This document shows, in pieces, positions 22,889 to 37,911 of a stretch of DNA of 38,502 nt. Where the stretch lies: NCBI GenBank assembly GCA_030836155.1, contig JAURQI010000090.1, positions 1-38,502 of the forward strand, given 5' to 3'. Origin of the DNA: Crocinitomix sp. (GTDB taxonomy: Bacteria; Bacteroidota; Bacteroidia; Flavobacteriales_D; Crocinitomicaceae). Positions within the stretch are counted from its first letter, which is position 1. Each line of letters opens with the position of its first letter. The notes below the pieces were generated by a model, which was given only the letters and a program-made list of their open reading frames with translations, did not search any database and was not told the origin of the DNA. The translations under genes and the position numbers were made by a program.

Positions 22889-23947
22889 ATGGCTACAGTA
22901 CACGAGGAAGTTCAGGATTATTATGGTAAACAATTGGAAAAATCGGAAGATTTAAAAACCAATGCCTGTTGTACGATTGCTCCCCCGCCACAGCATATTC
23001 GCAAAGCGTTAGCAGAGGTTCACGATGAAGTACAAGCCAAATATTACGGCTGTGGATTGACGATACCAGATCATGTAGAAGGGTTGAGAATTTTAGATCT
23101 AGGATCAGGGAGTGGAAGAGATTGTTATATTGCGAGTAAACTCGTTGGTGAAGCGGGATATGTGGTGGGTGTAGATATGACGGATGAGCAATTGGATGTA
23201 GCGAATAAGTATGTCGATTATCATACCGAAAAGTTTGGCTATCAAAAACCGAACGTGACCTTTTTAAAAGGGAATAATGAAGCGCTAGATGAATTAAATC
23301 TTGAGCCAAATTCTTTTGACGTGATCATTTCTAACTGCGTCATTAATCTCGCAACAGATAAATTAAAAGTGTTGCGTGATGCTTATGCTTTATTAAAACC
23401 GGGAGGGGAGATGTACTTTTCTGATGTTTATTCAGATCGTCGAATTCCGAAAAAATTGCAAGAAGACAGGGTGTTATGGGGAGAATGTTTAAGTGGTGCT
23501 TTATATTGGAATGATTTTTTGAGTTATTCAAAAGCAGCTGGATTTACCGATCCTCGTGCTGTGGAAAATAAACCTATCACCATTGAGAATATTGAGGTAG
23601 AAGAACGGGTAGGACCAATCCAGTTTTATTCCGTTACTTATCGCTTATTTAAGCTCGAGGGGTTAGAGTCAGACTGCGAAGACTATGGTCAAGCTGTGGC
23701 CTATAAAGGTGGTATAACAGGTGCTGATTTTGCATTTGATTTAGACGATCATCATCATTTCCCAAAAGGTAAAATCATGACCGTATGCGGCAATACGTAT
23801 CGCATGCTAAATGATACACGCTTTAAAGCGTATTTTGATTTTTATGGTACTTGGGATACCCATTATGGGATATTTGAAGGTTGTGGAGGAGCTATGCCTT
23901 TTGATGCTGGTTCCGATAGCGATAACGTTGCCGGCTCTTGCTGCTAA
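22889..23947 (+). CDS. arsM: arsenite methyltransferase-like SAM-dependent methyltransferase
   Basis: EDLKTNACC, YYGCGLTIPDHVEGLRILDLGSGSGRDCYIASKLVGEAGYVVGVDMTDEQLDVA, VIISNCVINLATDK, GECLSGALY; C-terminus ends GSCC. ArsM-type cysteine positions. Confidence 0.8.
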   Translation: MATVHEEVQDYYGKQLEKSEDLKTNACCTIAPPPQHIRKALAEVHDEVQAKYYGCGLTIPDHVEGLRILDLGSGSGRDCYIASKLVGEAGYVVGVDMTDEQLDVANKYVDYHTEKFGYQKPNVTFLKGNNEALDELNLEPNSFDVIISNCVINLATDKLKVLRDAYALLKPGGEMYFSDVYSDRRIPKKLQEDRVLWGECLSGALYWNDFLSYSKAAGFTDPRAVENKPITIENIEVEERVGPIQFYSVTYRLFKLEGLESDCEDYGQAVAYKGGITGADFAFDLDDHHHFPKGKIMTVCGNTYRMLNDTRFKAYFDFYGTWDTHYGIFEGCGGAMPFDAGSDSDNVAGSCC

Positions 23948-24021: not shown

Positions 24022-26427
24022 TTAGATTCTTCCAGTAATCGCTTCGGTAACGTTGATGATATGATCACCAACTTTCTCACATGACGAGAATAAGTTGTTG
24101 AATGTCATACCACTTTCCATGTTAAAATCTGAGCTTTTCAAGTTCTCAAGATGTTCTTCTCGCATCTCATCGCGCTTTTTATTGATTGCGTTTTCGGCTG
24201 CTTTTGCCGAATCAATCGTTACAGCTTCCCACTCTGCATTTAAATTATCGACCATGACTGCAAATGCTTTATCAACCAACTCAAACATTTCGGTTAAACT
24301 TGTTCTTTGCTCAGGAGAGAACCAAATTTTATGCTCTTCTTTTCGCTCGATAGCCTTTGATATTTGATAGAAGATATCACCAATGCGCTCCAAATCGTTT
24401 ACAATGCTATTCATTGCTCTAACTCGCTCTGCGGTTGACTCAGACATTTCGCCTTCAGAAACCTTTGCTAAATAAGAAGCCACTTCTACTTCCACCCGAT
24501 CCGTAATCTCTTCGTATTTTTCTATTTTCTCGTGGAGCTTATTCTTTTTCTTTTTGTTTTGTTCCGTCAATAAATCTTGAGTAAACCCGGACATTCGGCT
24601 AGTGATTTCGCCAAATTTAGCAACCTCCTTTTTAGCTTCAAAGATCGACATTTCCGGAGTGCCCATCATGCCTGAACCGATATAATCCAGATGGAACTCT
24701 TCATCTGCTCCTCCTCTTGATTTGACAGTCTTTTCAGCAATTCTTACCAGCCAAGGCACAAAAGGAAGTAATAGTAATACGTTGATGGTATTAAATGATG
24801 AGTGAAAGATTGCTAAAGCTAAGTTTGCTGATCCCCCGTCGCTGTATGGATCTCCTTCAATGAATAACGCTATCCCTTTAAGAATGAAAGGGAAGAGTAA
24901 AATCGCCCATGCTACACCGATAATGTTAAATAGCGAGTGTATGCGAGCAGATCGTTTTGCGTGCACATTACCGATTAATGAAGCCAATTCTGCTGTAATC
25001 GTAGTACCAATATTTTCACCCAAAATCATAGCAGAAGCCACTTCAAATGGAATAACACCCCCTGCAACCATCGTCATCGTCAATGCCATTGCAGCCGATG
25101 ATGACTGAATTACAACTGTTACTAAAGCCCCAAGGAAAACGAACATTAAGGGACCATACCATACATCTTTAAAGTCAATGAAAAACTGAACAATCGAAGA
25201 ATCAGTGCCTAATGATGGTACAGCGTCTTTCAATGCTCCTAATCCCATAAATAAAAGGGCAAATCCAATGATGACGCTCGCCCAAGTTTTCGCTTTCCCT
25301 TTTGTAAAGAACAATAATGGTGCTCCAAAAGCAATGAAAATGTATGCGTAAGAAGATAAACTTACTTTGAATCCGAAGATCAAGATTAACCAAGCCGTTA
25401 ATGTCGTACCAATATTGGCACCCATCATTACACCTGCTGATTGTCTTAATGTAAGTAGTCCTGCATTTACAAAACTTACAGTCATCACGGTAGTTACCGA
25501 AGACGATTGAACAATTGATGTGATTCCGAATCCTGTCAACACACCTGAAACACGATTTGATGTAATTGACCCTAACATATTTCTTAGACGAGATCCGGCA
25601 GCTTTTTGAAGACCTTCACTCATAATCTTCATACCAAAGATAAACATACCTAAGGCTCCGATTAGAACTAAAAACCTAAAAATACCCCATGCACGTTCGG
25701 TTTCGAATTTCCCTTTTTTGGACCAGATTGTTTTATTATCAAGGTTCAAACCAATTTTATAAACATACTTCTCTCCACCAACAAGCTCATCAATTTTCTT
25801 TTTAACCTTGTTGATTGGAATGTCTTCTTCAACTATCCATGGAGATTTTTCTGGAAATTTCTTGTTCTGTTTTTCTCCAATCTTTGTGTTGTATTTGAGT
25901 GAGTAACTTGCTTCAGGATAAACAGAGAGAATTTTGTTAATCTGATCTAACTCGATTGCCCACATAAACTCAACAGCCTCTTCTTTACCTTTTGCAGAAT
26001 TATTCTTAAAGATGGATTCAGAATAAGTGTTAAAATGAAGCGTGCCTTCGGTAATGTTTTCGCCGTTCGAAAAAGCACATGCAAATACTGTGTTTTCTGA
26101 TAAGTTGCTTATAGTTATTTCAGTTTTGTCGGCATGGATTGTTATTGTCTTCCAATCATCTGTTCCTACTTCACAATAATTAAAAGTAGTTGCTTTTCCG
26201 TCCAGTGATTCCCAAGAAATCGTTGATTTACCCGTTTCAAACGGCTTTAAGGTCAATGAATCAACATCGTTTTCAAAACTGTATTCAAATCCAGCAGGTG
26301 TAATAAGCGTTGGTACGCTTAAGACAGCAGTGCTTGTATCTATAACTTCGTTGTTAACTTCTTGCTGAGCACTCATCGAGGTTATAGTGATGCTTAGCAG
26401 GCTGAGAATACCTATAATTTTTTTCAT
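24022..26427 (-). CDS. Na/Pi cotransporter family protein with C-terminal PhoU-like domain and N-terminal exported extension
   Basis: GMFIFGMKIMSEGLQKAAGSRLRNMLGSITSNRVSGVLTGFGITSIVQSSSVTTVMTVSFVNAGLL...GANIGTTLTAW; second QSSSAAMALTMTMVAGG repeat; PhoU-like C-term. Start ATG 26427 (MKKIIGILSLLSITITSMSA); the track start 26466 lies upstream of the -7 element. Confidence 0.92.
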   Translation of the reverse strand: MKKIIGILSLLSITITSMSAQQEVNNEVIDTSTAVLSVPTLITPAGFEYSFENDVDSLTLKPFETGKSTISWESLDGKATTFNYCEVGTDDWKTITIHADKTEITISNLSENTVFACAFSNGENITEGTLHFNTYSESIFKNNSAKGKEEAVEFMWAIELDQINKILSVYPEASYSLKYNTKIGEKQNKKFPEKSPWIVEEDIPINKVKKKIDELVGGEKYVYKIGLNLDNKTIWSKKGKFETERAWGIFRFLVLIGALGMFIFGMKIMSEGLQKAAGSRLRNMLGSITSNRVSGVLTGFGITSIVQSSSVTTVMTVSFVNAGLLTLRQSAGVMMGANIGTTLTAWLILIFGFKVSLSSYAYIFIAFGAPLLFFTKGKAKTWASVIIGFALLFMGLGALKDAVPSLGTDSSIVQFFIDFKDVWYGPLMFVFLGALVTVVIQSSSAAMALTMTMVAGGVIPFEVASAMILGENIGTTITAELASLIGNVHAKRSARIHSLFNIIGVAWAILLFPFILKGIALFIEGDPYSDGGSANLALAIFHSSFNTINVLLLLPFVPWLVRIAEKTVKSRGGADEEFHLDYIGSGMMGTPEMSIFEAKKEVAKFGEITSRMSGFTQDLLTEQNKKKKNKLHEKIEKYEEITDRVEVEVASYLAKVSEGEMSESTAERVRAMNSIVNDLERIGDIFYQISKAIERKEEHKIWFSPEQRTSLTEMFELVDKAFAVMVDNLNAEWEAVTIDSAKAAENAINKKRDEMREEHLENLKSSDFNMESGMTFNNLFSSCEKVGDHIINVTEAITGRI

Positions 26428-26449
26428 TTTAATATGTAAAGAATTTGGG

Positions 26450-26457
26450 CAAAAGTA
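26450..26457 (-). promoter_or_regulatory. Bacteroidota -7 element TACTTTTG (minus) for the Na/Pi cotransporter
   Basis: + strand CAAAAGTA. Confidence 0.6.
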
Positions 26458-26489
26458 GGTTTTCATTCCAGTATGGATTCGGTTTCAAT

Positions 26490-26506
26490 GTTAAGGTTAT
26501 GTTAAA
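26490..26506 (-). promoter_or_regulatory. candidate Pho-type box: two TTAACA half-sites 11 bp apart
   Basis: Minus strand TTAACATAACC-TTAACATTG; + strand GTTAA at 26490 and 26501. Confidence 0.5.
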
Positions 26507-26613
26507 AAAATAGGGTTAAAAATTATTTCATCCTGGATAACGAACTGTTTATTCATTTGTCTAAACCCTTATTTATATTGGTTTTGCATGACTGTGAAAT
26601 GCCTAATGTTAAA

Positions 26614-26641
26614 GTTAAGAAAAGGTTAAGTATAAGTTATG
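26614..26641. promoter_or_regulatory. three GTTAAG-like units at exact 11-bp spacing upstream of the porin
   Basis: GTTAAG 26614, GTTAAG 26625, GTTATG 26636. Confidence 0.45.
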
Positions 26642-26738
26642 TATATAAATTATATGTTAATTAAATATAATCTTTGTCCTCAAAAATCAACAATCAAACA
26701 TGATTATCGCTCAATAGAGTTGAAAAAAACAATCTCCT

Positions 26739-27980
26739 ATGAATAAGATCATTTCTCTAGTCGTAATTGCGTTTTCATTGAACACAGCAATGGGGCAGAT
26801 CAGTACGGATAGCTTTGGTAAAGGCATAAATGTAATTGGTAAAGATTCATCTTACACAATGAAGTTTGGTGTTCGTTTTCAGTCACTTTACATGGCTGAT
26901 TGGAATGTACGGGATGATGATTTCCAATACGTTGAAGATTTATCTTCGAATTTTTTGATCCGTAGATCACGATTTAAATTTAATGGATATGCCTTTACAC
27001 CAAAATTGAAATATAAAATGGAGTTCGGTCTGACAAATAGAGACATAGGTGGGGGAATTGATGCCGAGCATAATTTTGCTCCAAGATTTATTCTAGATGC
27101 ATTTATTGATTGGAATTTCTTTGGAAATTTTTCGATTAAGGCCGGTCAGGCTAAGTTGCCTGGCAATAGAGAGCGAGTGATCTCCTCGGGGAACATGCAA
27201 CTTGTAGATCGATCACGATTGAATAGTCGTTATAATATTGATCGTGATATGGGTGTTCAACTTAAGCATCATTTTACATTAGGAAGTCAGTTCTTAGTAA
27301 GAGAGGTTGTAGCTTTTACGCAAGGAGAGGGGAGAAATATAACAGCAAATAATATCGGTGGATATGACTATACATTCAGATTGGAAATGTTACCTTTTGG
27401 AAAGTTTCAGAAAAAGGGAGATTATGTAGCTTCTGCTATTTACCGCGAAGAAAAACCCAAATTAGCCCTTGGTTTTACCTATGACATCAACGAGCGAGCA
27501 CCTCGAGAACGAGGACAGAACGGTAGTTTTATATACAATGAGGATGGATCACATGCACAAGGCAAAACGTTGAACACCATTTTTGCAGATCTAATGTTTA
27601 AGTACAAAGGATTAAACATTATGATCGAGTATGCAAACAAAATGGTGGATGGAGATGATCCTAATGTTTATGACAAGGATGATGAGTCAATCGTAGTTGG
27701 TACGTACTACGTTGGAACAGGTATTAATGCGCAAGCAGGATGGATGTTTAAAAACAATGTTGAATTGACCGGGAGATACACGCAGATAACTCCTCAAGTA
27801 GGTGTAAGCAACAACGAAACGGAATACACGCTTGGACTTTCGAAGTTCTTTGTAGGACATAAATTGAAGGTTCAAACAGATATTAGCTATCGTCAAAGAG
27901 GGTTTGCAGGTGATATTACGCCGAACGCTGGTAGAGATGATAAGTTGTATTATCGCCTTCAATTCGATATCCATTTTTAA
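26739..27980 (+). CDS. porin (phosphate-selective porin O/P-like)
   Basis: Signal peptide; MKFGVRFQSLYMADWNVRDDDFQYVEDLSSNFLIRRSRFKFNGYAFTPKLKYKMEFGLTNRD...DAFIDWNFFGNFSIKAGQAKLPGNRERVISSGNMQLVDRS; typical OprO/P-type barrel. Confidence 0.82.
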   Translation: MNKIISLVVIAFSLNTAMGQISTDSFGKGINVIGKDSSYTMKFGVRFQSLYMADWNVRDDDFQYVEDLSSNFLIRRSRFKFNGYAFTPKLKYKMEFGLTNRDIGGGIDAEHNFAPRFILDAFIDWNFFGNFSIKAGQAKLPGNRERVISSGNMQLVDRSRLNSRYNIDRDMGVQLKHHFTLGSQFLVREVVAFTQGEGRNITANNIGGYDYTFRLEMLPFGKFQKKGDYVASAIYREEKPKLALGFTYDINERAPRERGQNGSFIYNEDGSHAQGKTLNTIFADLMFKYKGLNIMIEYANKMVDGDDPNVYDKDDESIVVGTYYVGTGINAQAGWMFKNNVELTGRYTQITPQVGVSNNETEYTLGLSKFFVGHKLKVQTDISYRQRGFAGDITPNAGRDDKLYYRLQFDIHF

Positions 27981-27987
27981 ATAGAAA

Positions 27988-28003
27988 TTAACGTTAGTTT
28001 AAC
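27988..28003 (+). promoter_or_regulatory. candidate Pho-type box: two TTAAC half-sites 11 bp apart upstream of chrA
   Basis: TTAACGTTAGT-TTAACC (27988, 27999); last half-site ends 22 nt before the first base of TAATTTTG (28025-28032). Confidence 0.5.
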
Positions 28004-28024
28004 CAATGTTATAAATCTTCCCTA

Positions 28025-28032
28025 TAATTTTG
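28025..28032 (+). promoter_or_regulatory. Bacteroidota -7 element TAATTTTG for chrA
   Basis: TAnnTTTG exact match. Confidence 0.6.
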
Positions 28033-28053
28033 TAGTATGATATAATTTGTAGT

Positions 28054-29196
28054 ATGACACAAAGGGAAAAACTGATTGAAGTAGCGTCTGTATTTTTTAA
28101 ACTAGGTTGTTTTGCCTTTGGAGGCCCTGCAGCTCACATTGCTATGATGGAGGAAGAGGTAGTAACCAAAAGAAAGTGGATGGATCGCCAGCACTTTCTG
28201 GATCTAATGGGAGCTACCAATCTAATTCCAGGACCTAATTCTACTGAAATGACGATGCATTGTGGACATGAACGAGCGGGAATTCCAGGTCTTTTCATAG
28301 CTGGAATATGTTTCATTTTTCCAGCTGTATTTGTAACAGGTACATTAGCCTATCTCTACATCACTTATGGTCAATTACCGGATGTCGCAGGTTTTGTCTA
28401 TGGGATCAAGCCGGCAGTGTTAGCAATTATAGCTTCGGCCATCTATAAGTTGGGAAAAAAAGCACTTAAAAATGCTGAATTAGGAGCCTTGGGAGTGCTT
28501 GTTATCGTTGCTTGTTATTATGGTGTAAATGAAATCGTTGCACTATTGGCTGCTGGTTTGCTTAGTGTATTATATTATCAGTTGAAGAATAAGTTTACTG
28601 CTAAGTCTGATACAAATGTTAAATCAATCATACCCCTGTTACTTGCTCAAGCACCGGTAATTTCGAAGATAAGTTTGTCATCATGGACTGTTTTTTGGAC
28701 CTTTCTAAAGGTAGGATCGGTATTATATGGTAGTGGATATGTTTTATTCGCATATCTCGACGCAGAATTGGTGGGAAGAGGATGGTTGACAAGGACAGAA
28801 TTGATAGATGCAATTGCAGTAGGTCAATTCACCCCAGGTCCTGTGCTTTCAACTGCTACTTTTATTGGGTACCAATTAACGGGGTTCTGGGGTGCAATTG
28901 CGGCAACAGCAGGTATTTTCCTGCCATCTTTTCTATTTGTTTGGATATTAAACCCACTAATTCCAAAAATGAGAAAATCTGCCTTGCTCAGAAATTTTTT
29001 GGACGCTGTAAATATTGCTGCTCTTGGAGTTATGTTATTTGTACTGTATCAAATGGGATATGAAACATTGAATGACTGGAAAACAATATTGATAGCAGGA
29101 CTTTCTTTCTTCGTTGTCTTCGTACTTAAGAAGACAAATCCAATCTGGATTATTCTGGGTGGAGGTATCTTGGGGTATTTTCTACTCCCATTGTAA
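28054..29196 (+). CDS. chrA: ChrA-family (chromate) transporter, two-domain form
   Basis: FFKLGCFAFGGPAAHIAMMEEEVVTKRKWMDRQHFLDLMGATNLIPGPNSTEMTMHCGH and second half FLKVGSVLYGSGYVLFAYLDAELVGRGWLTRTELIDAIAVGQFTPGPVLSTATFIGY. Confidence 0.93.
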   Translation: MTQREKLIEVASVFFKLGCFAFGGPAAHIAMMEEEVVTKRKWMDRQHFLDLMGATNLIPGPNSTEMTMHCGHERAGIPGLFIAGICFIFPAVFVTGTLAYLYITYGQLPDVAGFVYGIKPAVLAIIASAIYKLGKKALKNAELGALGVLVIVACYYGVNEIVALLAAGLLSVLYYQLKNKFTAKSDTNVKSIIPLLLAQAPVISKISLSSWTVFWTFLKVGSVLYGSGYVLFAYLDAELVGRGWLTRTELIDAIAVGQFTPGPVLSTATFIGYQLTGFWGAIAATAGIFLPSFLFVWILNPLIPKMRKSALLRNFLDAVNIAALGVMLFVLYQMGYETLNDWKTILIAGLSFFVVFVLKKTNPIWIILGGGILGYFLLPL

Positions 29197-29310
29197 GTAC
29201 TGTTTTGTCTCTCTTTACGTGTTTCCATGCTAGGCTTTTTTTAGCACCCTCTGAAGATTATCGAATTGTTAACTCAAAATGTTAGTAGGTCATTCTAGCT
29301 AATAAATCAT

Positions 29311-29318
29311 TATTTTTG
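29311..29318 (+). promoter_or_regulatory. Bacteroidota -7 element TATTTTTG for response regulator 1
   Basis: TAnnTTTG exact match 18 nt before the ATG. Confidence 0.55.
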
Positions 29319-29335
29319 TTTAAAACCATAAATCA

Positions 29336-30016
29336 ATGAGTCATTCAATTCTTGTAATCGATGATGAACAGGATATTCGGATCCTGATCAGGTATAATCT
29401 TGAAAAGGAAGGGTATATGGTTGCCGAAGCTGAAAACGGAATGGAGGGAATTGAATTGGCTAAAAAAAACATTCCAGATCTTATTTTATTGGATGTGATG
29501 ATGCCCGGATTGGATGGTATCGCGACATGTGAAAAATTAAGAGATATTCCAGCGCTTCAGAATACAATGGTTTGTTTTTTAACGGCTCGAGGAGAAGATT
29601 ATTCTCAAATTGCGGGATTTGATGCAGGTGCTGACGATTATATCACCAAACCAATAAAACCGAAATTATTGGTTAGTCGGATAGCGGCGGTATTGAGACG
29701 TCAAAATAAATTAGCTACAAAGAAACAAGATCAATTAGAAGCTAAGCAATCAATAGTGGTAGATAGAGAGCGCTATTTAATTTCGAAAGATGGTCAGGAG
29801 ATGATATTACCGCGAAAGGAATTTGAATTACTTGCGCTCCTTATGTCTAAGCCTGGAAAAGTATTCCATCGCGATGCGATTATGAGTAGTGTATGGGGCA
29901 CAGACGTTGTTGTAGGTGACCGAACAATTGATGTTCACATTCGAAAATTAAGAGAAAAAATTGGGGACAAACATATTGTTACCGTGAAAGGGGTAGGATA
30001 TAAATTTCAGACGTAG
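29336..30016 (+). CDS. OmpR/PhoB-family response regulator (RR1)
   Basis: ILVIDDEQDIRILIRYNLEKEGY, DLILLDVMMPGLDG, GADDYITKPI, winged-helix C-term DRTIDVHIRKLREKIGDKHIVTVKGVGYKF. Confidence 0.93.
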   Translation: MSHSILVIDDEQDIRILIRYNLEKEGYMVAEAENGMEGIELAKKNIPDLILLDVMMPGLDGIATCEKLRDIPALQNTMVCFLTARGEDYSQIAGFDAGADDYITKPIKPKLLVSRIAAVLRRQNKLATKKQDQLEAKQSIVVDRERYLISKDGQEMILPRKEFELLALLMSKPGKVFHRDAIMSSVWGTDVVVGDRTIDVHIRKLREKIGDKHIVTVKGVGYKFQT

Positions 30017-30067
30017 TTTTTCGAAAAAAAATAAGCAAAAGAATAAAGATTTTAATAGTTTAAACAT

Positions 30068-30100
30068 AAAAAGGGTTCGTTGATCAACGAACCCTTTTTA
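30068..30100. terminator. bidirectional terminator between RR1 and the lipoprotein gene
   Basis: AAAAAGGGTTCGTTGATCAACGAACCCTTTTTA near-perfect inverted repeat between convergent genes. Confidence 0.8.
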
Positions 30101-30121
30101 TTTCGAAAAGTTGTATTTGGA

Positions 30122-31474
30122 TTAAAGTGCTTTCGTCCAACCGGCAGTCCAATCAGATCCTGACTGAACAGCACCGATGTAAGACGCAGCATCAAACCAT
30201 GATCCCCATGCCGTTGGGTCACCAGCGCCAGTTGCAGTCGTTCCAACATATCCTGAAAGGAATCCAACTAAAGAACCATCAGTAGCTGAAGTGTTTCCGT
30301 TTGCAACATCTTCGAAGTTAGCGATACCCGTTGCAGCGTCTCCAGCAGATGTTGTGAAAACGAATGGGTTAACATTGTCAATGATGCTGTTCATCATAGT
30401 CAATGAACCACCGTCCATGTTTCCTAAAGTTACGTCGTGCTCAACTTGCGCTCCTCTTTTAGGGAATCCAGTTACGACGAAGTTCATTAAGTTACCTTTA
30501 GTTCCTTCTCTTAATTTCAAACCTTGGTTTGAATCATCACCATCGTTAACACCAATTAAAGTAACGTTAGCAATGTTCGGGTTAGAATAAGGTGCAGCTT
30601 CGTTGTTATCACCGTTGTTATCTGCTTCGATACCACGGTCACCACCAACAGCGTCTTGGTTTACAACCCAGAATTGTCCATTTCCTGACCATCCGTGTGT
30701 CCAGTCAAATGAATCATCTTGGTTACCAGAAGAGATCGCATATTTTAAAGAAACAGTTCCACCGAAGAACTCAAATCCATCATCAGATCCTTTGTATGCT
30801 TGTAAGTGGTGTAGTGTTGTTCCTGATCCACATCCGTTGAATGAGAATCCGTTCAATTCGTTATCTGTACCTAAGATTTTTCCAGCGTACTCAACACGAA
30901 CATAACACATAGAACCAGAGTTGTCAGCAGCATTGTCACCACCATAGATACCTGTACCACCTTCACCCTCAGCACTCGCACCAGTGTTGATTGGAGCGTA
31001 TCCGTTTATGATAATTCCTCCCCAAGAACCTGGAGTTGGAGCGTCAGCGATCGGAGTAAAAACGATTGGTTCATCAGCCGTCCCACAAGCTTCGATTTTA
31101 CCTCCTTGGGATATAGAGAGGAAAGGAGTAGTCCCATCATTTGCAGCATATACAGTAACTCCAGGCTCAATTGTTAAAGTAGCTCCTGAACCAACGAATA
31201 CACCACCAGAGATCATCCAGTTACCAGCAGCAGTGATCGTACGATCTGCATCAATAGTACCAGTGATTTGGTTGTACGTTTCACTTCCAATAGTTACTTC
31301 TGTATACCACGTATCGGTATCAGGTAATTCACACGAACCGTCATCTTTTTTAGCTTCAGCATCATAGTTAGTTGCTAATGGATCAGTACATCCTTTTTTC
31401 TTACAAGCAAGAACTACTGCCAGTAGTGCGCCTGCTAAAACCATCATCTTGACAGTACTTTTTTGAATTTTCAT
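30122..31474 (-). CDS. surface lipoprotein, predicted repetitive beta-helix-like
   Basis: Lipobox LAVVLAC at N-term; GCTDPLATNYDAEAKKDDGSC motif; GVFVGSGATLTIEPGVTVYAANDGTTPFLSISQGGKIEACGTADEPIVFTP; next to a TonB-dependent receptor. Confidence 0.72.
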   Translation of the reverse strand: MKIQKSTVKMMVLAGALLAVVLACKKKGCTDPLATNYDAEAKKDDGSCELPDTDTWYTEVTIGSETYNQITGTIDADRTITAAGNWMISGGVFVGSGATLTIEPGVTVYAANDGTTPFLSISQGGKIEACGTADEPIVFTPIADAPTPGSWGGIIINGYAPINTGASAEGEGGTGIYGGDNAADNSGSMCYVRVEYAGKILGTDNELNGFSFNGCGSGTTLHHLQAYKGSDDGFEFFGGTVSLKYAISSGNQDDSFDWTHGWSGNGQFWVVNQDAVGGDRGIEADNNGDNNEAAPYSNPNIANVTLIGVNDGDDSNQGLKLREGTKGNLMNFVVTGFPKRGAQVEHDVTLGNMDGGSLTMMNSIIDNVNPFVFTTSAGDAATGIANFEDVANGNTSATDGSLVGFLSGYVGTTATGAGDPTAWGSWFDAASYIGAVQSGSDWTAGWTKAL

Positions 31475-31531
31475 TTCTCTTTTCTTTTTTCAGATTTCGA
31501 TACAAAGATGTAGCTTATGTTTCGCTAACCA

Positions 31532-31591
31532 ATTACCTGCTTATTACGCTTAGGTTAATTAATCGTTAAAGTGGTTTAACATTAAGTTAAT
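31532..31591 (-). promoter_or_regulatory. candidate Pho-type box upstream of the lipoprotein: half-sites at 11-bp register
   Basis: Minus-strand units ATTAA, GTTAA, TTAAC, TTAAC, GTAAT, GTAAT starting (+ coordinate of low end) at 31587, 31576, 31565, 31554, 31543, 31532; last ends 22 nt before near-consensus -7 CATCTTTG (+31503-31510). Confidence 0.5.
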
Positions 31592-31655
31592 GTAATTGCA
31601 GCGCTGCAAATTGAGAGTGGGTTCTCATGATGAGATTGATCAAACAGCAAAAAAA

Positions 31656-31682
31656 ATCCCGTTAGTCAGTGACCAACGGGAT
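31656..31682 (-). terminator. rho-independent terminator of the TonB-dependent receptor gene
   Basis: ATCCCGTT-agtcagtgacc-AACGGGAT with A-tract on its left (U-tract on minus-strand transcript). Confidence 0.75.
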
Positions 31683-31703
31683 ACCATTTATAAAATGAAT
31701 TAC

Positions 31704-34700
31704 TTATTCAGCAGCTTCTGTTTCGGCTTCAGCCATTTCAGTTGGCTTTTTCTTTTTCTTAGCAACAGGGATGTTGTAAGAGAATGACAAGCTAAAGTCG
31801 ATACCTCTTTGGAAGCTTGAAACGTTTAATGTTTCACCCGCATTTACCATGTCTTGCTGCACGATATTGATTGTAGGGTTTAAGATATTCTTTGCTTTAA
31901 ATCCGAAACTATATGTATCATTAAATGTAATACTACTTACAAAATTGAGCGAGTTAACGGGTTGCTCATACTGATCACCAATTCCGTTAGATCCAACTGA
32001 GAATAAACGGGGTCCGAATACATTATAAGAGGCAGCAAATAAAACTGACTTCTTATTGTTATCGTCATCAGAACCAAAGTCATTTTTATAACTTAAATCA
32101 AAGTTGATTAGGTATGGAGAAGCTCCTTCTAGTGGACGGATTGAATTGGTGTTAATTGCACCACCATCCGTTGTGTCAATGATAACTGAAGTGTACATAT
32201 AAGTGGCGTTGATGGCAACACTGAATTGATTTAAGATGCTCGTATCTCTTTTCAAAGAATCACTCACCAAGAAAGCTAGGCTCTTCATCATTTCAATTTC
32301 TGCTCCAATAACGTTTGCCGATTGCGCGTTGGCAAAGCTCATCAATTGTCCACTGGCAGTTGCACGCATCGTTTGCTCAATTGGACGATCTAAATATTTA
32401 TAGAAACCACCAACTGTGAACATTTCACCTGGTTTTCCATAACGCTCATAACGGAAGTCAGCATTGTAGTTTGTACCGTTATCCAATTCTGGATTACCCT
32501 GGGCTTTCATACCTGCGAAGTACAATACATACTGGAATGGTGCAACCTCATTGAATTTAGGACGCGTTAATGTTTTACTCGCTACAAATCGGAATACATC
32601 TTTATCTGTTGCATTGAGACGTGTTATTAAGCTCGGTAAGATGTCGTTGCTCAAGATGATGTTCTTTTCGTATTCAGAAGGCGTTTGTTGGTTTCTGTTC
32701 TCAACGCTTTGGTATCCACTTTCGAAACGAACGCCCGGGATGATGTGGAACTTGTTAAAACGCATTTGAATATCTGAGTAGAACCCAGTTACTTGCTGTT
32801 GCGCTGCGTAAGATGAACCGAAGTTCACTACTTCATCAATGCTAAACTGACCTAATTCGTGACGATCAGAATTTAAGAATTCGTTCATATTATAAATGTC
32901 AACATTGTTTCCAACCTCATCTGCTAAGCTGTTTAGGATATAGTTGTATTGTTTGTAATTAAACGCTCTTTTTTTTGATTTGTAATCAGCACCAACTTTT
33001 AGAATAATTTTCTCAGCAGGTAGACTATCTTTTTGATACGAATTCCACTGCTCTCCATATTTTAAGACGTAACTAGCATTTACTTTTCCAGCAATCTCAC
33101 TTTCACGTAAAGCACTGTGGAAAATATGATTTTCATTACGATCGATAAAGTTAAAGGCATAGCTGTTAGTTGCATTCCTGTTTTCTTCATCATAAAATGC
33201 AACAAACTGTTTTCTATCGGGTTCTTGACTTCCTGTTATGCTGTACGATCCTCTCCAGTCTATAGTTAATCGAGACAGAGATGAATCTTCGCTAAAAGGT
33301 AAAAATTCATGTGTACCAATTATTTGATTGACAGAGATAAAATTCTGTTGATAAGTGTTTCTTCGTGAATAGACATCTCTTGGGTAGTCAAAGTGTGAAC
33401 CCCAAGACTCTCTTACTTCGTCACTTGAATTGTTGACAAATAAAGAATTAAAGGAGATGTTGTTTTTTGGATTCAATCTGAAATACAAGTTGAACAATCC
33501 GGTTGTAGCCGTTTCTCTTCTGTACTTATCAAAATCGTAGTTCAAACGTTCTTCACTTTGTGCGTTGATGATTTTAATCTGACCGTTTTCATAGCGATAG
33601 CTGTGATCGTGTGACAGCAAAGTCAAGAATCCAATCCCTTTCGATCGATCTTTGGATTTAGTTGTAGGATAAAAATTTCCCGCTGTTAAAGAAAAGTTAG
33701 AATTAGGTAAAGCGCTTACAAGCTTGGTACCGAAATTATCGTTGAAGCCAGTTGGGTTACCTTCTTTTGAACTGTAGATCGAGTTGGGATAAATATTGTT
33801 CACAGCACTAAGTGTCCCTGTTTTCGAATTGGCAATAACATACTCAGGAATTTGACGCGTTCCGTTATCGAATCCAAAATAATCGTAATGACCACCTTCG
33901 TAGGTTCTGAAATCATTAAAAGTAGTTTGCGTGTTATATCCACTACCAATTCCAATTTTTAAAGTTGGTTGACTATAAAAGCTTCTTGTAGAAACGTTAA
34001 ATGCGCCTCCAGAGAAATCACCGTATAATTCTGAAGACATTACTTTACTGACTTCAATAGAACTCACGATATCAGTAGGGAAAATACTTAAAGGAGCCAC
34101 TCTAAAATCAGGGTGTGGAGAAGGGATTGGTAATCCGTTCATGTAAGCCACGTTATATCGATCGCCCAAACCACGAACGTAAAGTGAAGAACCAACCGTT
34201 GACATACCTGTCATTGTTTTAGCAGCTCCACCTAAATCACTTTGCCCCGTTTTTTCGATCATATTACGTGATTTTTGCGTGGTCACCTTCGTATCATTTT
34301 TGACGTCTTGCACAACTGCCACTTCTGACTTACCATTATCTAACGTCCTTTTTGCAGTAATTACAACTTCTTCAAGTTGTCCCGCACCACTCATCATTAC
34401 ATTGTGCGTAATCTTTTGGCCAGAGACAATGTTTAAAATAACAGTATCTGCCTTTAGTTGCAAGGTGCGATTAGTAAAAACTAAAGTGTTTTCACCTTCC
34501 GGTAAATTGATAGAATACGCACCAAAAAAATCCGTTTTTACTTTTGGTGTCATTTTGCCATTTTTTAGAACGGATACAGTTGTCAGAGGCACCGTCTCTT
34601 CTCCATCACCTAGATTTTGCATCACCACACCTCCAACTGTTCCAGTCTGCGCATGTGAGATATTCATAATCCCAAGAAAAGTCATAAGTAATAGAATCTT

Positions 34701-34712
34701 AGTTGCTTTCAT
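31704..34712 (-). CDS. TonB-dependent outer-membrane receptor with carboxypeptidase-like N-terminal domain
   Basis: Signal peptide MKATKILLLMTFLGIMNISHA; GTVGGVVMQ...VKTDFFGAYSINLPEG; plug GLGDRYNVAYMNGLPIPSP; SRPKFNEVAPF. Start ATG 34712 rather than 34733, which lies next to the -7 element. Confidence 0.92.
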   Translation of the reverse strand: MKATKILLLMTFLGIMNISHAQTGTVGGVVMQNLGDGEETVPLTTVSVLKNGKMTPKVKTDFFGAYSINLPEGENTLVFTNRTLQLKADTVILNIVSGQKITHNVMMSGAGQLEEVVITAKRTLDNGKSEVAVVQDVKNDTKVTTQKSRNMIEKTGQSDLGGAAKTMTGMSTVGSSLYVRGLGDRYNVAYMNGLPIPSPHPDFRVAPLSIFPTDIVSSIEVSKVMSSELYGDFSGGAFNVSTRSFYSQPTLKIGIGSGYNTQTTFNDFRTYEGGHYDYFGFDNGTRQIPEYVIANSKTGTLSAVNNIYPNSIYSSKEGNPTGFNDNFGTKLVSALPNSNFSLTAGNFYPTTKSKDRSKGIGFLTLLSHDHSYRYENGQIKIINAQSEERLNYDFDKYRRETATTGLFNLYFRLNPKNNISFNSLFVNNSSDEVRESWGSHFDYPRDVYSRRNTYQQNFISVNQIIGTHEFLPFSEDSSLSRLTIDWRGSYSITGSQEPDRKQFVAFYDEENRNATNSYAFNFIDRNENHIFHSALRESEIAGKVNASYVLKYGEQWNSYQKDSLPAEKIILKVGADYKSKKRAFNYKQYNYILNSLADEVGNNVDIYNMNEFLNSDRHELGQFSIDEVVNFGSSYAAQQQVTGFYSDIQMRFNKFHIIPGVRFESGYQSVENRNQQTPSEYEKNIILSNDILPSLITRLNATDKDVFRFVASKTLTRPKFNEVAPFQYVLYFAGMKAQGNPELDNGTNYNADFRYERYGKPGEMFTVGGFYKYLDRPIEQTMRATASGQLMSFANAQSANVIGAEIEMMKSLAFLVSDSLKRDTSILNQFSVAINATYMYTSVIIDTTDGGAINTNSIRPLEGASPYLINFDLSYKNDFGSDDDNNKKSVLFAASYNVFGPRLFSVGSNGIGDQYEQPVNSLNFVSSITFNDTYSFGFKAKNILNPTINIVQQDMVNAGETLNVSSFQRGIDFSLSFSYNIPVAKKKKKPTEMAEAETEAAE

Positions 34713-34735
34713 TATTTTAACGCTTAAATTCAATG

Positions 34736-34743
34736 CAAATGTA
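34736..34743 (-). promoter_or_regulatory. Bacteroidota -7 element TACATTTG (minus) for the TonB-dependent receptor
   Basis: + strand CAAATGTA. Confidence 0.55.
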
Positions 34744-34776
34744 TATGCTCGTTTTCAGGGGATTCCAAAATATCGT

Positions 34777-34858
34777 GTTATGAATTCATTAATTGTCCTT
34801 AACAATGGATTAACATTAAGTTCATTTTATGTTAAAAGAAACGTAACTATGAATTAAC
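34777..34858. promoter_or_regulatory. 11-bp-periodic TTAAC half-site array (candidate multi-site Pho box) in the divergent TBDT/RR2 intergenic region
   Basis: Units at 34777 GTTAT, 34788 ATTAA, 34799 TTAAC, 34810 TTAAC, 34821 TTCAT, 34832 TTAAA, 34843 GTAAC, 34854 TTAAC; exact 11-bp steps. Confidence 0.6.
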
Positions 34859-34879
34859 GCTTTTGTAGTGCTCTGGAGA

Positions 34880-34887
34880 TATTTTTG
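34880..34887 (+). promoter_or_regulatory. Bacteroidota -7 element TATTTTTG for response regulator 2
   Basis: TAnnTTTG exact; first base 22 nt after the last base of the array (34858), the same distance as at chrA. Confidence 0.6.
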
Positions 34888-34900
34888 TAAAAAGAATAAT

Positions 34901-35566
34901 TTGGAGCAGACTGTATTAGTCGTCGAGGACGATGCGGATATTAGAGAATTATTAAGGTACAACCTTCAAAAGGCTGGGTTAACTGTTCATGCGGTTGGAA
35001 CTGGCCGTGAGGTAATGAATTTGTGTAAGAAAATTAGACCAGACCTTGTGATTCTCGATGTTATGTTGCCAGATATTGATGGGATAGAGGTGTGCGAATT
35101 TCTGAGAAAAGATGCACAATTAACAGGCGCGTATATCCTTTTTCTCTCAGCGAGGGGAGAAGATTATTCACAGGTAGCGGGTTATCGTGCAGGAGGAGAT
35201 GACTACATTGTTAAACCGGTAAGTATTAAAGTCCTTATGCACAAGGTGCGTGCTGCATTGTCAAGAATAAGCCATTATCATATGCATGATGCCTCTCCTG
35301 AAAAAGTTGTTTTGAATACTGATCGCTTTTCAATAAGAAAAAACGGAAAAGAAAGTATTATTCCCAAAAAGGAGTTCGAGCTACTGTCTTATCTCATGAG
35401 TTCTCCAGATAAGGTTTTTAGACGCGAAGAGATCTTAGCGAATGTTTGGGGCCATTCGAATATCAATGACCGTACAATTGACGTGCATGTTCGTAAACTG
35501 AGAGAGCGTTTCGGTTCGAGTATTATCCGCACCGTAAAAGGTGTAGGTTATCGTTATATGGGTTAG
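34901..35566 (+). CDS. OmpR/PhoB-family response regulator (RR2), likely TTG start
   Basis: (M)EQTVLVVEDDADIRELLRYNLQKAGL, DLVILDVMLPDIDGIEVCEFLRKD, GGDDYIVKPV, DRTIDVHVRKLRERFGSSIIRTVKGVGYRYMG. The track start 34868 lies upstream of the -7 element. Confidence 0.9.
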   Translation: MEQTVLVVEDDADIRELLRYNLQKAGLTVHAVGTGREVMNLCKKIRPDLVILDVMLPDIDGIEVCEFLRKDAQLTGAYILFLSARGEDYSQVAGYRAGGDDYIVKPVSIKVLMHKVRAALSRISHYHMHDASPEKVVLNTDRFSIRKNGKESIIPKKEFELLSYLMSSPDKVFRREEILANVWGHSNINDRTIDVHVRKLRERFGSSIIRTVKGVGYRYMG

Positions 35567-35571
35567 TTCCC

Positions 35572-37911
35572 CTATCGGACAATCACCAATTTCTGCGTGA
35601 CCGCTTCATTGTTTTTATCAGTAATCTGCACGAAATAATGTCCGGCCTCCATATCATTGGTTCCGATCATAGCCTCAAACTGATTGGATTGATAAACAAC
35701 TCTACCTAATTCATCCCTAATCATAATTGAAGCCACCTCAGTTGGGTTTTCTACAAGAATTTGCACTTGCTCATTCGCTGGATTCGGATAGATTTTAAAT
35801 TTAAAAGCGTCATCCTCAGTAATTCCTGATTGTCCACCATCCGATACTACTGAAAAGTCATCAAAATAGAAGCCATCCATTTGTAATCCTCCATCCGTTA
35901 TCAATAAGAATTTAAATCTTACATTATCTTCATCAATATAATCTGTTAGGTCGATTTCTTCTAATACCCAATCAGCCTGCATACCTTCATATAATGGTTC
36001 ATCGACATCCTGCGGAGCAACGCCTAAAACCGTATAGTTTCCACAAAGAGGCGTCCATGTTGCCCCGTCGTTCGTACTCGCCATAAACTCAACATAATCA
36101 TAATCACTTTCGATTTCCCATTTAGCACGGAAGTTCACATAAGCATATGACGCACCTTCAAATGAGAATGCTTCATCCAATTCAATTTCTTTTTCGACAT
36201 TATTTCCGTAGGTATCATCATAAGGACTATCGGTGATGCAGTTAGAAGGCGAATAAAACGTTTCGTCTGTCAAATCCCAATCACCAGACCAGTGGAATAA
36301 ATCATCACAATCATCTGAGAAAACAACAAAACCTTCTCCATAACTTTTGATAATCGTATCATGTCTTGTCCAAGTGCCATTATCCGTGTGGATCACATAT
36401 TTAATCTCATCACCAAAAACTAAATCACCATCAATTTCATAGGCGATAGAATCTTCTTCTGTTTCCATTAAAGCTAATGTATGCACATTGGCATCTCCTG
36501 TAATGGTGATTCCAGACACACCCGTCATTGAAACGGTGATATCACCATCTTTTAATCCCAAGCGGTTAATTGAATAGTTTAAATATCCCGTGCTTGCGCT
36601 CAGTCGATTATCCTCGAGGTCAGCCGTTACACCATATACATGTGCTAGGTGAGACATGACCAAATTTGAGAATAACATCTCCTTACAGGTCGGAATGATA
36701 GCCGAACTTGGAGGCCAGAATGCATCGCCAACTTCTGGCGTTACAGCAAAAATTTCAGGTTTAACATCTAAGTCGTCCACATACATCCAATCGTCTGAAT
36801 CACCTGCTGCTGGGTACAATTCAGTCGATTTCTGACCGATATAACCATTGTGAACAGACATGTGGTCAGTATACGCTTGAAAATAATCGTGATCTTCGGC
36901 AAACTCTGCATAAGCCCATCCTATTGGAAATAATAATAAGTCACCATGCGAATGCGCATTGAAGGCAAATTTAAATTCATGATTTTCACACATCCACTTT
37001 ATAGCTTGCGTTTCTGGCTCGGAAAAATCTGAAACACCAGCATATGTATCTCCATTTTCAAAAGGGGAAGTACCTGATTCGTTCCAGTGGTATGAATAAT
37101 TTCTATTCAAATCAACCCCCATATTATCGTCACCGATATCCGGGTTTCTATTTTTACGATGCATTCCGCCACCGCCAGGGTTGGTCGTATGGTTGTATTT
37201 ATAACCGTCTGGGTTGATCATTGGAACAAAGTACATTTCTGTATTATCCACCAAATAGGTGACCTCATCATTTATTCCATAGTTCTCTAAAAGGTACCAC
37301 ATGTAAAAGATAGTTTGTGATAAACTCATGGGTTCTCTAGCATGATGAATGGCAGTATAAAGGACTTCTTCCTCGTCAACTTCATCCGTCTCAGCATTAT
37401 CCGAAATTCTAACCCAATGAATTGGACGTCCTTCCCAGGTTTCAAAACCAGGTACACCATCTTTTTCTGTAATTAATTCAGGATATGCCGCATGCATGGC
37501 ATCGAGTTCTGCCAAATATTCCTCATATGTATAATATCCACCCATATCTCCTAATTCGAAATTCTCAGGTGTAGTTGGATTGTATCCACCATCATCTCCT
37601 CCGTCACAATCCGATCGGTCAGATCTTGTGATGGGATCATTGATGTGTTCAGCATAATAGGAAGCTACGTCATCAATCAAGATATCATAGGCAATGCCTT
37701 CTTCATCTAAAATTTGAATTTCTCGTGCTGATAAATCCACTTCACACCAATGATTCAGTTTGTGTTTACCATGATCCAATGTGACGCCCATATTGGACAA
37801 GTCATTCAGTTCTGCATTGGTTGCATAGATCTTGACTTTTGAATAATTGAGCTGCGCATTAATTTGCCAGCTGCCCATTAGCATAAGGGCGAGTAAAATG
37901 AAATTTTTCAT
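35572..37911 (-). CDS. secreted M14-family zinc carboxypeptidase with T9SS type A C-terminal sorting domain
   Basis: HHAREPMS, VPMINPDGYKYNHTTNPGGGGMHRKNRNPDIGDDNMGVDLNRNYSYHWNESGTSP, FNAHSHGDLLLFPIGW; C-term FKIYPNPANEQVQILVENPTEVASIMIRDELGRVVYQS...GHYFVQITDKNNEAVTQKLVIVR. Confidence 0.9.
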   Translation of the reverse strand: MKNFILLALMLMGSWQINAQLNYSKVKIYATNAELNDLSNMGVTLDHGKHKLNHWCEVDLSAREIQILDEEGIAYDILIDDVASYYAEHINDPITRSDRSDCDGGDDGGYNPTTPENFELGDMGGYYTYEEYLAELDAMHAAYPELITEKDGVPGFETWEGRPIHWVRISDNAETDEVDEEEVLYTAIHHAREPMSLSQTIFYMWYLLENYGINDEVTYLVDNTEMYFVPMINPDGYKYNHTTNPGGGGMHRKNRNPDIGDDNMGVDLNRNYSYHWNESGTSPFENGDTYAGVSDFSEPETQAIKWMCENHEFKFAFNAHSHGDLLLFPIGWAYAEFAEDHDYFQAYTDHMSVHNGYIGQKSTELYPAAGDSDDWMYVDDLDVKPEIFAVTPEVGDAFWPPSSAIIPTCKEMLFSNLVMSHLAHVYGVTADLEDNRLSASTGYLNYSINRLGLKDGDITVSMTGVSGITITGDANVHTLALMETEEDSIAYEIDGDLVFGDEIKYVIHTDNGTWTRHDTIIKSYGEGFVVFSDDCDDLFHWSGDWDLTDETFYSPSNCITDSPYDDTYGNNVEKEIELDEAFSFEGASYAYVNFRAKWEIESDYDYVEFMASTNDGATWTPLCGNYTVLGVAPQDVDEPLYEGMQADWVLEEIDLTDYIDEDNVRFKFLLITDGGLQMDGFYFDDFSVVSDGGQSGITEDDAFKFKIYPNPANEQVQILVENPTEVASIMIRDELGRVVYQSNQFEAMIGTNDMEAGHYFVQITDKNNEAVTQKLVIVR

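Follow-up and report, generated by a model that had tools for sequence, protein, structure and literature searches.

Gene content and organization

The window analyzed here, meaning the whole stretch of 38,502 nt from Crocinitomix sp., represents one entire contig (JAURQI010000090.1) of a 3.19 Mb assembly that comprises 180 contigs and is 94% complete. Between positions 24,022 and 35,566 it encodes a Na/inorganic phosphate (Pi) cotransporter fused to a PhoU domain (Na/Pi-PhoU), a porin of the O/P family, a ChrA-type transporter, two PhoB-like response regulators (RR1 and RR2), a β-helix lipoprotein, and a TonB-dependent receptor (TBDT); short direct repeats precede almost all of these genes. 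With a probability of about 0.8, we regard this region as the principal Pho (phosphate-starvation) locus of a relative of Crocinitomix within the Flavobacteriales. The seven genes had been named in an original prediction made from the DNA alone, and all of them are present with the families proposed, as shown by Pfam or NCBIfam matches for all but the lipoprotein (Table 1). The start of the TBDT was corrected to a likely ATG at 34712, and that of RR2 to what is probably a TTG at 34901.

Table 1. Features of the candidate phosphate-starvation locus
Feature	Coordinates	Strand	Evidence or remark
Na/Pi cotransporter fused to PhoU domain	24022-26466	-	PF02690 4.4e-61, PF01895 1.3e-10
Pho-box-like site TTAACATAACCTTAAC, Na/Pi side	26490-26505	-	exact match
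Pho-box-like tandem repeats, porin/Na/Pi divergent promoter region	26614-26640	-	26614-26629 exact; 26625-26640 one mismatch
Porin O/P family outer-membrane channel (OprP position)	26739-27980	+	PF07396 5.2e-9
Pho-box-like sites upstream of ChrA	27977-28003	+	27988-28003 exact
ChrA (CHR superfamily) anion transporter	28054-29196	+	TIGR00937 4.2e-93
Pho-box-like site, 78 bp upstream of RR1	29258-29273	+	one mismatch
RR1, PhoB-like response regulator (OmpR/PhoB-type)	29336-30016	+	TIGR02154 4e-63
Lipoprotein, ElpS/FII type, β-helix	30122-31474	-	structure model, relatives, conserved lipobox Cys24
Pho-box-like sites upstream of lipoprotein	31554-31591	-	31554-31569 exact; 31575-31591 one mismatch
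TBDT, partner of the lipoprotein	31704-34733	-	TIGR01782 2.4e-40, Plug 3.6e-10
Pho-box-like cluster between TBDT and RR2	34799-34858	not assigned	34799 exact; 34820, 34843 one mismatch
RR2, second PhoB-like response regulator (OmpR/PhoB-type)	34868-35566	+	TIGR02154 6.8e-55, tree, alignment
ArsM-type arsenite methyltransferase adjoining Na/Pi gene	22889-23947	+	NF008823 2.2e-50, under cut-off 263

A direct repeat upstream of the locus genes

The repeat has the form TTAAC-N6-TTAAC, and classical PhoB boxes are likewise direct repeats with a period of 11 bp. An 11-bp TTAAC motif before several genes had been pointed out in the original prediction, and the counts bear this out: the window contains five exact copies where 0.25 are expected, a number that none of 100 shuffles reached, and 15 copies with at most one mismatch where 4.65 are expected. 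All five exact copies fall between 26490 and 34814, an 8.4-kb stretch that holds 5 of the 25 exact sites in the 3.19 Mb genome. Because the motif is rarer genome-wide than its backward-read control pattern, both as exact copies (25 versus 42) and with one mismatch allowed (362 versus 805), its clustering in the locus is not explained by base composition. Sites lie 58-150 bp from the start codons of the porin, ChrA, RR1 (with one mismatch), lipoprotein, TBDT, and RR2 genes, and at 24 and 148 bp from that of Na/Pi-PhoU.

The same repeat recurs in 62 related loci, which were picked via the lipoprotein and are mutually related, so that the motif counts are not independent events: 42 exact sites occur in 49 kb upstream of locus genes versus 5 in 73 kb upstream of other genes, about a 12-fold difference in density per base. 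A spacing scan over gaps of 0-15 bases peaked at the 6-base gap alone; exact sites numbered 1-6 at every other gap and 1-2 for each of four control words. A chance origin of the motif is ruled out by the shuffles, the spacing scan, and the control words. When one mismatch is allowed, a site precedes RR1 in 42/49 of the relatives' loci, RR2 in 11/11, Na/Pi-PhoU in 17/18, and the porin in 8/9; ChrA also has upstream boxes in two relatives. The core of the repeat agrees with that of the Riemerella PhoP motif, TTTAACA (PMC9603813). The repeat thus very likely serves as the PhoB box in this order, and as such it would offer a concrete sequence for regulon prediction in Flavobacteriales.

Among the 25 exact genomic sites, several are intragenic or precede genes with no clear phosphate link. 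Two others are found in a second locus of the genome (G000:C176; L086:13116-18554), which encodes a 5'-nucleotidase split over two open reading frames, an Exo_endo_phos_3 nuclease, and a divergent TBDT. Genes of this sort would be expected in a phosphate regulon, which fits the Pho-box reading, and the locus is likely a second phosphate-regulated one that would provide phosphorus from nucleic acids.

Two PhoB-like regulators

RR1 and RR2 are encoded on either side of the lipoprotein/TBDT pair. TIGR02154 PhoB is the best family for both, and both proteins score under the curated equivalog cut-offs; for the NF053854 PhoB equivalog, the values are 211.9 for RR1 and 169.1 for RR2 against a cut-off of 270, RR1 being the best of 17 matches in the genome. 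When aligned to E. coli PhoB, both regulators keep the phospho-acceptor Asp53 together with Asp10 and Lys105, and their recognition helix, RTIDVH(I/V)RKLRE versus RTVDVHIRRLRK in E. coli PhoB, is PhoB-like. Because these helices are nearly identical in RR1 and RR2, the two proteins probably read the same boxes. In the phylogenetic tree they occupy separate old lineages, with RR2 nearest to the Flavobacterium PhoB clade at moderate support (92/81), and two relatives carry an RR1-type gene together with a PhoR-linked regulator gene. PhoR adjoins PhoB in several relatives; here, the best PhoR candidate (46% identity) is encoded on another contig (C35:6349-7383), away from the PhoB-like genes.

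Phosphate importers of the genome

The 94% complete assembly gave no PstB match over the cut-off and no match to a Pit/PHO4 importer, so that Na/Pi-PhoU, itself single-copy, is its only recognized phosphate importer, and a standard Pst/Pho operon is ruled out. The absence of Pst is not new, since it has already been stated for plant-associated Bacteroidetes (PMC8115612). The remark in the original prediction that the window contains neither pst genes nor an alkaline phosphatase gene holds, and a PhoX-like gene is present elsewhere in the genome. Na/Pi-PhoU has about 250 extra N-terminal residues after its signal peptide, an extension found in the genus relatives (about 800 aa) and absent from the versions of about 565 aa in another family of the order.

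Conservation of the neighborhood

In the genus, the order Na/Pi-PhoU, porin, (ChrA), RR1, lipoprotein, TBDT, RR2, and M14 peptidase is kept with small changes in three relatives, and other families retain the lipoprotein-TBDT-PhoB core. Among 41 lipoprotein loci (the window and its relatives), 36 have an adjacent same-strand TBDT and 31 a PhoB-like regulator within the stretch, while Na/Pi-PhoU occurs in 18, the porin in 9, ChrA in 9, and PhoR in 7. Named genomes provide a wider sample of 70 loci, 59 of which have the adjacent TBDT and 25 a PhoB-like regulator within 8 kb; by chance, given 7 strong full-length PhoB-family matches per 3.19 Mb, about 4% of such stretches would contain one. Lipoprotein matches span Bacteroidota, Poribacteria, Acidobacteria, and alpha- and gammaproteobacteria, and in Arsukibacterium, Alteromonas, Kordiimonas, and others the pair adjoins phoB/phoR or pst, five proteobacterial loci being of this kind. 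Conservation of the lipoprotein, receptor, and regulator genes, proposed with the original prediction as a check, therefore extends beyond close relatives, with the pair itself found in several phyla.

Known counterparts

The closest published counterpart is the PUSIV/phoBR cluster of Flavobacterium johnsoniae (Fjoh_0541-0549) described by Lidbury et al. (PMC8115612), whose TBDT (Fjoh_0545) and lipoprotein FII (Fjoh_0546) rise by 8.0 and 9.9 log2 units, respectively, on Pi depletion (PMC8115612). As in PUSIV, the window has an OprP-type porin, a PhoB-like regulator (RR2) divergent from the TBDT, a TBDT directly upstream of the β-helix lipoprotein on the same (-) strand, and no Pst. In contrast to PUSIV, it adds Na/Pi-PhoU and ChrA, has two PhoB-like regulators, and belongs to a genome with phoR on another contig. 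The likeness to F. johnsoniae, and also that to Caulobacter crescentus, is drawn from close relatives that share the gene order. For the former these are F. hercynium and F. pectinovorum, which share the PUSIV order and whose lipoproteins are 37-43% identical to that of the window; in F. hercynium, a PF04101 glycosyltransferase, a PF07396 porin (OprP), PhoR, PhoB, the TBDT, and the lipoprotein follow each other, an order and Pfam content equal to those of Fjoh_0541-0546 (Table 1 of PMC8115612).

FII has already been related to ElpS of Caulobacter (PMC8115612), a lipoprotein induced at low Pi whose co-occurrence with a TBDT has also been noted (PMC2996285). ElpS (CC_0170) and the receptor CC_0171 resemble the window pair as a phosphate-starvation lipoprotein adjoining a TBDT, but their gene order is opposite, the proteobacterial lipoproteins are about 900 aa long, and the window has no type II secretion genes. 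Kordiimonas and the alphaproteobacterium IMCC14465 show the Caulobacter arrangement, in which lipoprotein and TBDT are followed by the type II secretion genes gspC and gspD. Proteobacterial members encoded beside a TBDT, gspC/gspD, or pst/phoB are about 38-42% identical to the window lipoprotein.

Two statements of the original prediction have to be revised on these grounds. The pair had been called uncharacterized, and it matches the published PUSIV and ElpS/CC0171 pairs; the locus had been called nonstandard, and its gene order has been published as the low-phosphate-induced PUSIV. Judged by gene order and family content, the locus is a version of the known Flavobacterium/Caulobacter phosphate-starvation locus with lineage-specific additions, and the less expected elements are regulatory and transport details, namely, the two PhoB-like lineages, the split-off phoR, and the boxed ChrA.

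The lipoprotein and its receptor

A β-helix had been guessed for the lipoprotein, and the predicted structure agrees, being a confident β-helix (pLDDT 89.4, pTM 0.86). Neither this protein nor five relatives from Bacteroidota and proteobacteria have a Pfam or NCBIfam match; fold searches returned distant β-helices only (best E 6e-3, TM <0.4), and sequence searches gave no close solved structure for the lipoprotein, the TBDT, or the porin. SusCD and PusCD systems also combine a TBDT with a lipoprotein partner, but the window lipoprotein is a β-helix with no SusD match in Pfam or NCBIfam, and a SusCD locus is ruled out. The lipoprotein of one genus relative is 79% identical. Across 49 relatives from several phyla 30 residues are invariant, 8 of which are Asp or Glu (E171, E206, D231, D232, E235, D253, D254, and D257); several of these acidic residues recur at intervals of about one coil, a spacing suggestive of a stripe that serves in metal binding, catalysis, or ligand binding. 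Tandem second cassettes, each with its own lipoprotein/TBDT pair, occur in four relatives (L077:8868-19312, L070:763-9727, L126, and L127).

The pair most likely captures a phosphorus-containing macromolecule at the cell surface and imports it, and import of a phosphorus compound of some kind is plausible. A MotA/ExbB gene two genes downstream of the pair in Aestuariibacter fits energized import. A doubtful but serious alternative is that the lipoprotein is not a binding lid and instead acts as an enzyme or, as proposed for ElpS, activates a secreted phosphatase, so that the TBDT would merely import the released product. Overproduction of ElpS increased extracellular phosphatase activity (PMC2996285), the predicted fold resembles carbohydrate-active β-helix enzymes, and the invariant acidic residues look like an active or metal site. 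However, no phosphatase activity was seen with the purified ElpS protein, deletion of ElpS left the activity undiminished (PMC2996285), and the tight same-strand pairing with the TBDT (59/70 named loci) better fits a transport partner.

It is rather improbable that the pair imports a nonphosphorus need of P-starved cells, such as a metal cofactor for PhoX or PafA. TBDTs classically import metal chelates, and the invariant acidic residues form a run with the potential to bind cations, but the neighbors of the pair are phosphate genes, and limitation for N and Fe tightly represses the P-responsive loci of F. johnsoniae, among them PUSIV (PMC8115612). Whatever it carries, the pair represents a widespread family that lacks a Pfam or NCBIfam match and is tied to phosphate starvation across phyla; Bacteroidota are major recyclers of organic phosphorus, and the locus may bear on how they take up large phosphorus compounds.

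A proposed phosphate-starvation response

In the mechanism we favor, low phosphate would lead to phosphorylation of the PhoB-type regulators, which would then bind the 11-bp TTAAC direct repeats in this organism. Pi uptake would be raised through the porin at the outer membrane and Na/Pi-PhoU at the inner membrane, and the surface pair would be raised as well; this first half, from regulators and repeats to increased import and the pair, is well supported by the comparisons above. The β-helix lipoprotein would then capture a phosphorus-bearing macromolecule or hold a partner enzyme and hand material to the TBDT for energized import. The phosphate responsiveness suggested in the original prediction is thus strongly supported by comparison, through a PhoB-type box present across families, the PhoB, PhoR, Na/Pi-PhoU, and porin neighbors in relatives, and the expression data for the syntenic F. 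johnsoniae cluster.

Some observations weigh against the Pho assignment. The phosphate response of this organism rests on sequence comparison, and the substrate of the pair is a proposal for every member of the family. In Caulobacter, cc0171 was expressed constitutively, and ElpS production was unaffected when this gene was deleted (PMC2996285). The PhoX-like gene (C26:4057-5688) has no box with at most one mismatch close to its start and is possibly constitutive. Finally, in four relatives the pair adjoins a Bat operon with no Pho genes in view; in the Riemerella PhoPR study, the Bat operon was phoR-dependent (PMC9603813).

That the repeats belong to another OmpR-type regulator, for instance an ArcA-like redox regulator, with the phosphate genes incidental, is highly improbable: a likeness between the PhoP motif of Riemerella and the ArcA motif of E. 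coli has been pointed out (PMC9603813), and some pairs adjoin Bat operons, but the 11-bp period is that of PhoB boxes, and across families the repeats stand before phosphate importers and before both PhoB-like genes; they also occur at the nuclease/nucleotidase locus. A bolder extension of the Pho reading would combine a two-input phosphate switch, in which two old PhoB-type lineages act on the same 11-bp repeats with different inputs and phoR split off, with a β-helix lipoprotein that is a surface receptor or a hydrolase of a new kind, acting on phosphorus-bearing polymers; we consider this combination unlikely.

ChrA, ArsM, and neighboring genes

ChrA is single-copy in the genome, has its own boxes, and recurs in the Pho loci of two families, while the arsM gene near Na/Pi-PhoU is kept in three relatives and is possibly an accessory of the locus. 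With ArsM lying near Na/Pi-PhoU in several genomes, it is a reasonable guess that the two proteins handle arsenate or another oxyanion, probably one that leaks in via the phosphate transporters, or else that they serve some other need of P-starved cells. In cyanobacteria, growth of a chrA (A1320) knockout of Synechococcus sp. PCC 7002 under P deficiency was 64% of that of the wild type (PMC11358556), and marine picocyanobacteria of low-phosphate waters show an enrichment of chrA (PMC10119275). The CHR transporter is linked to P limitation in both cases, but the phyla differ and the likeness to the window ChrA is at the family level, between putative orthologs. ChrA-type transporters may thus be part of the phosphate response outside cyanobacteria.

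Rfam gave no matches in the window, which leaves RNA regulation without support. An M14 carboxypeptidase gene with a type IX secretion system (T9SS) sorting tail (35572-37911) stays beside RR2 across the genus.

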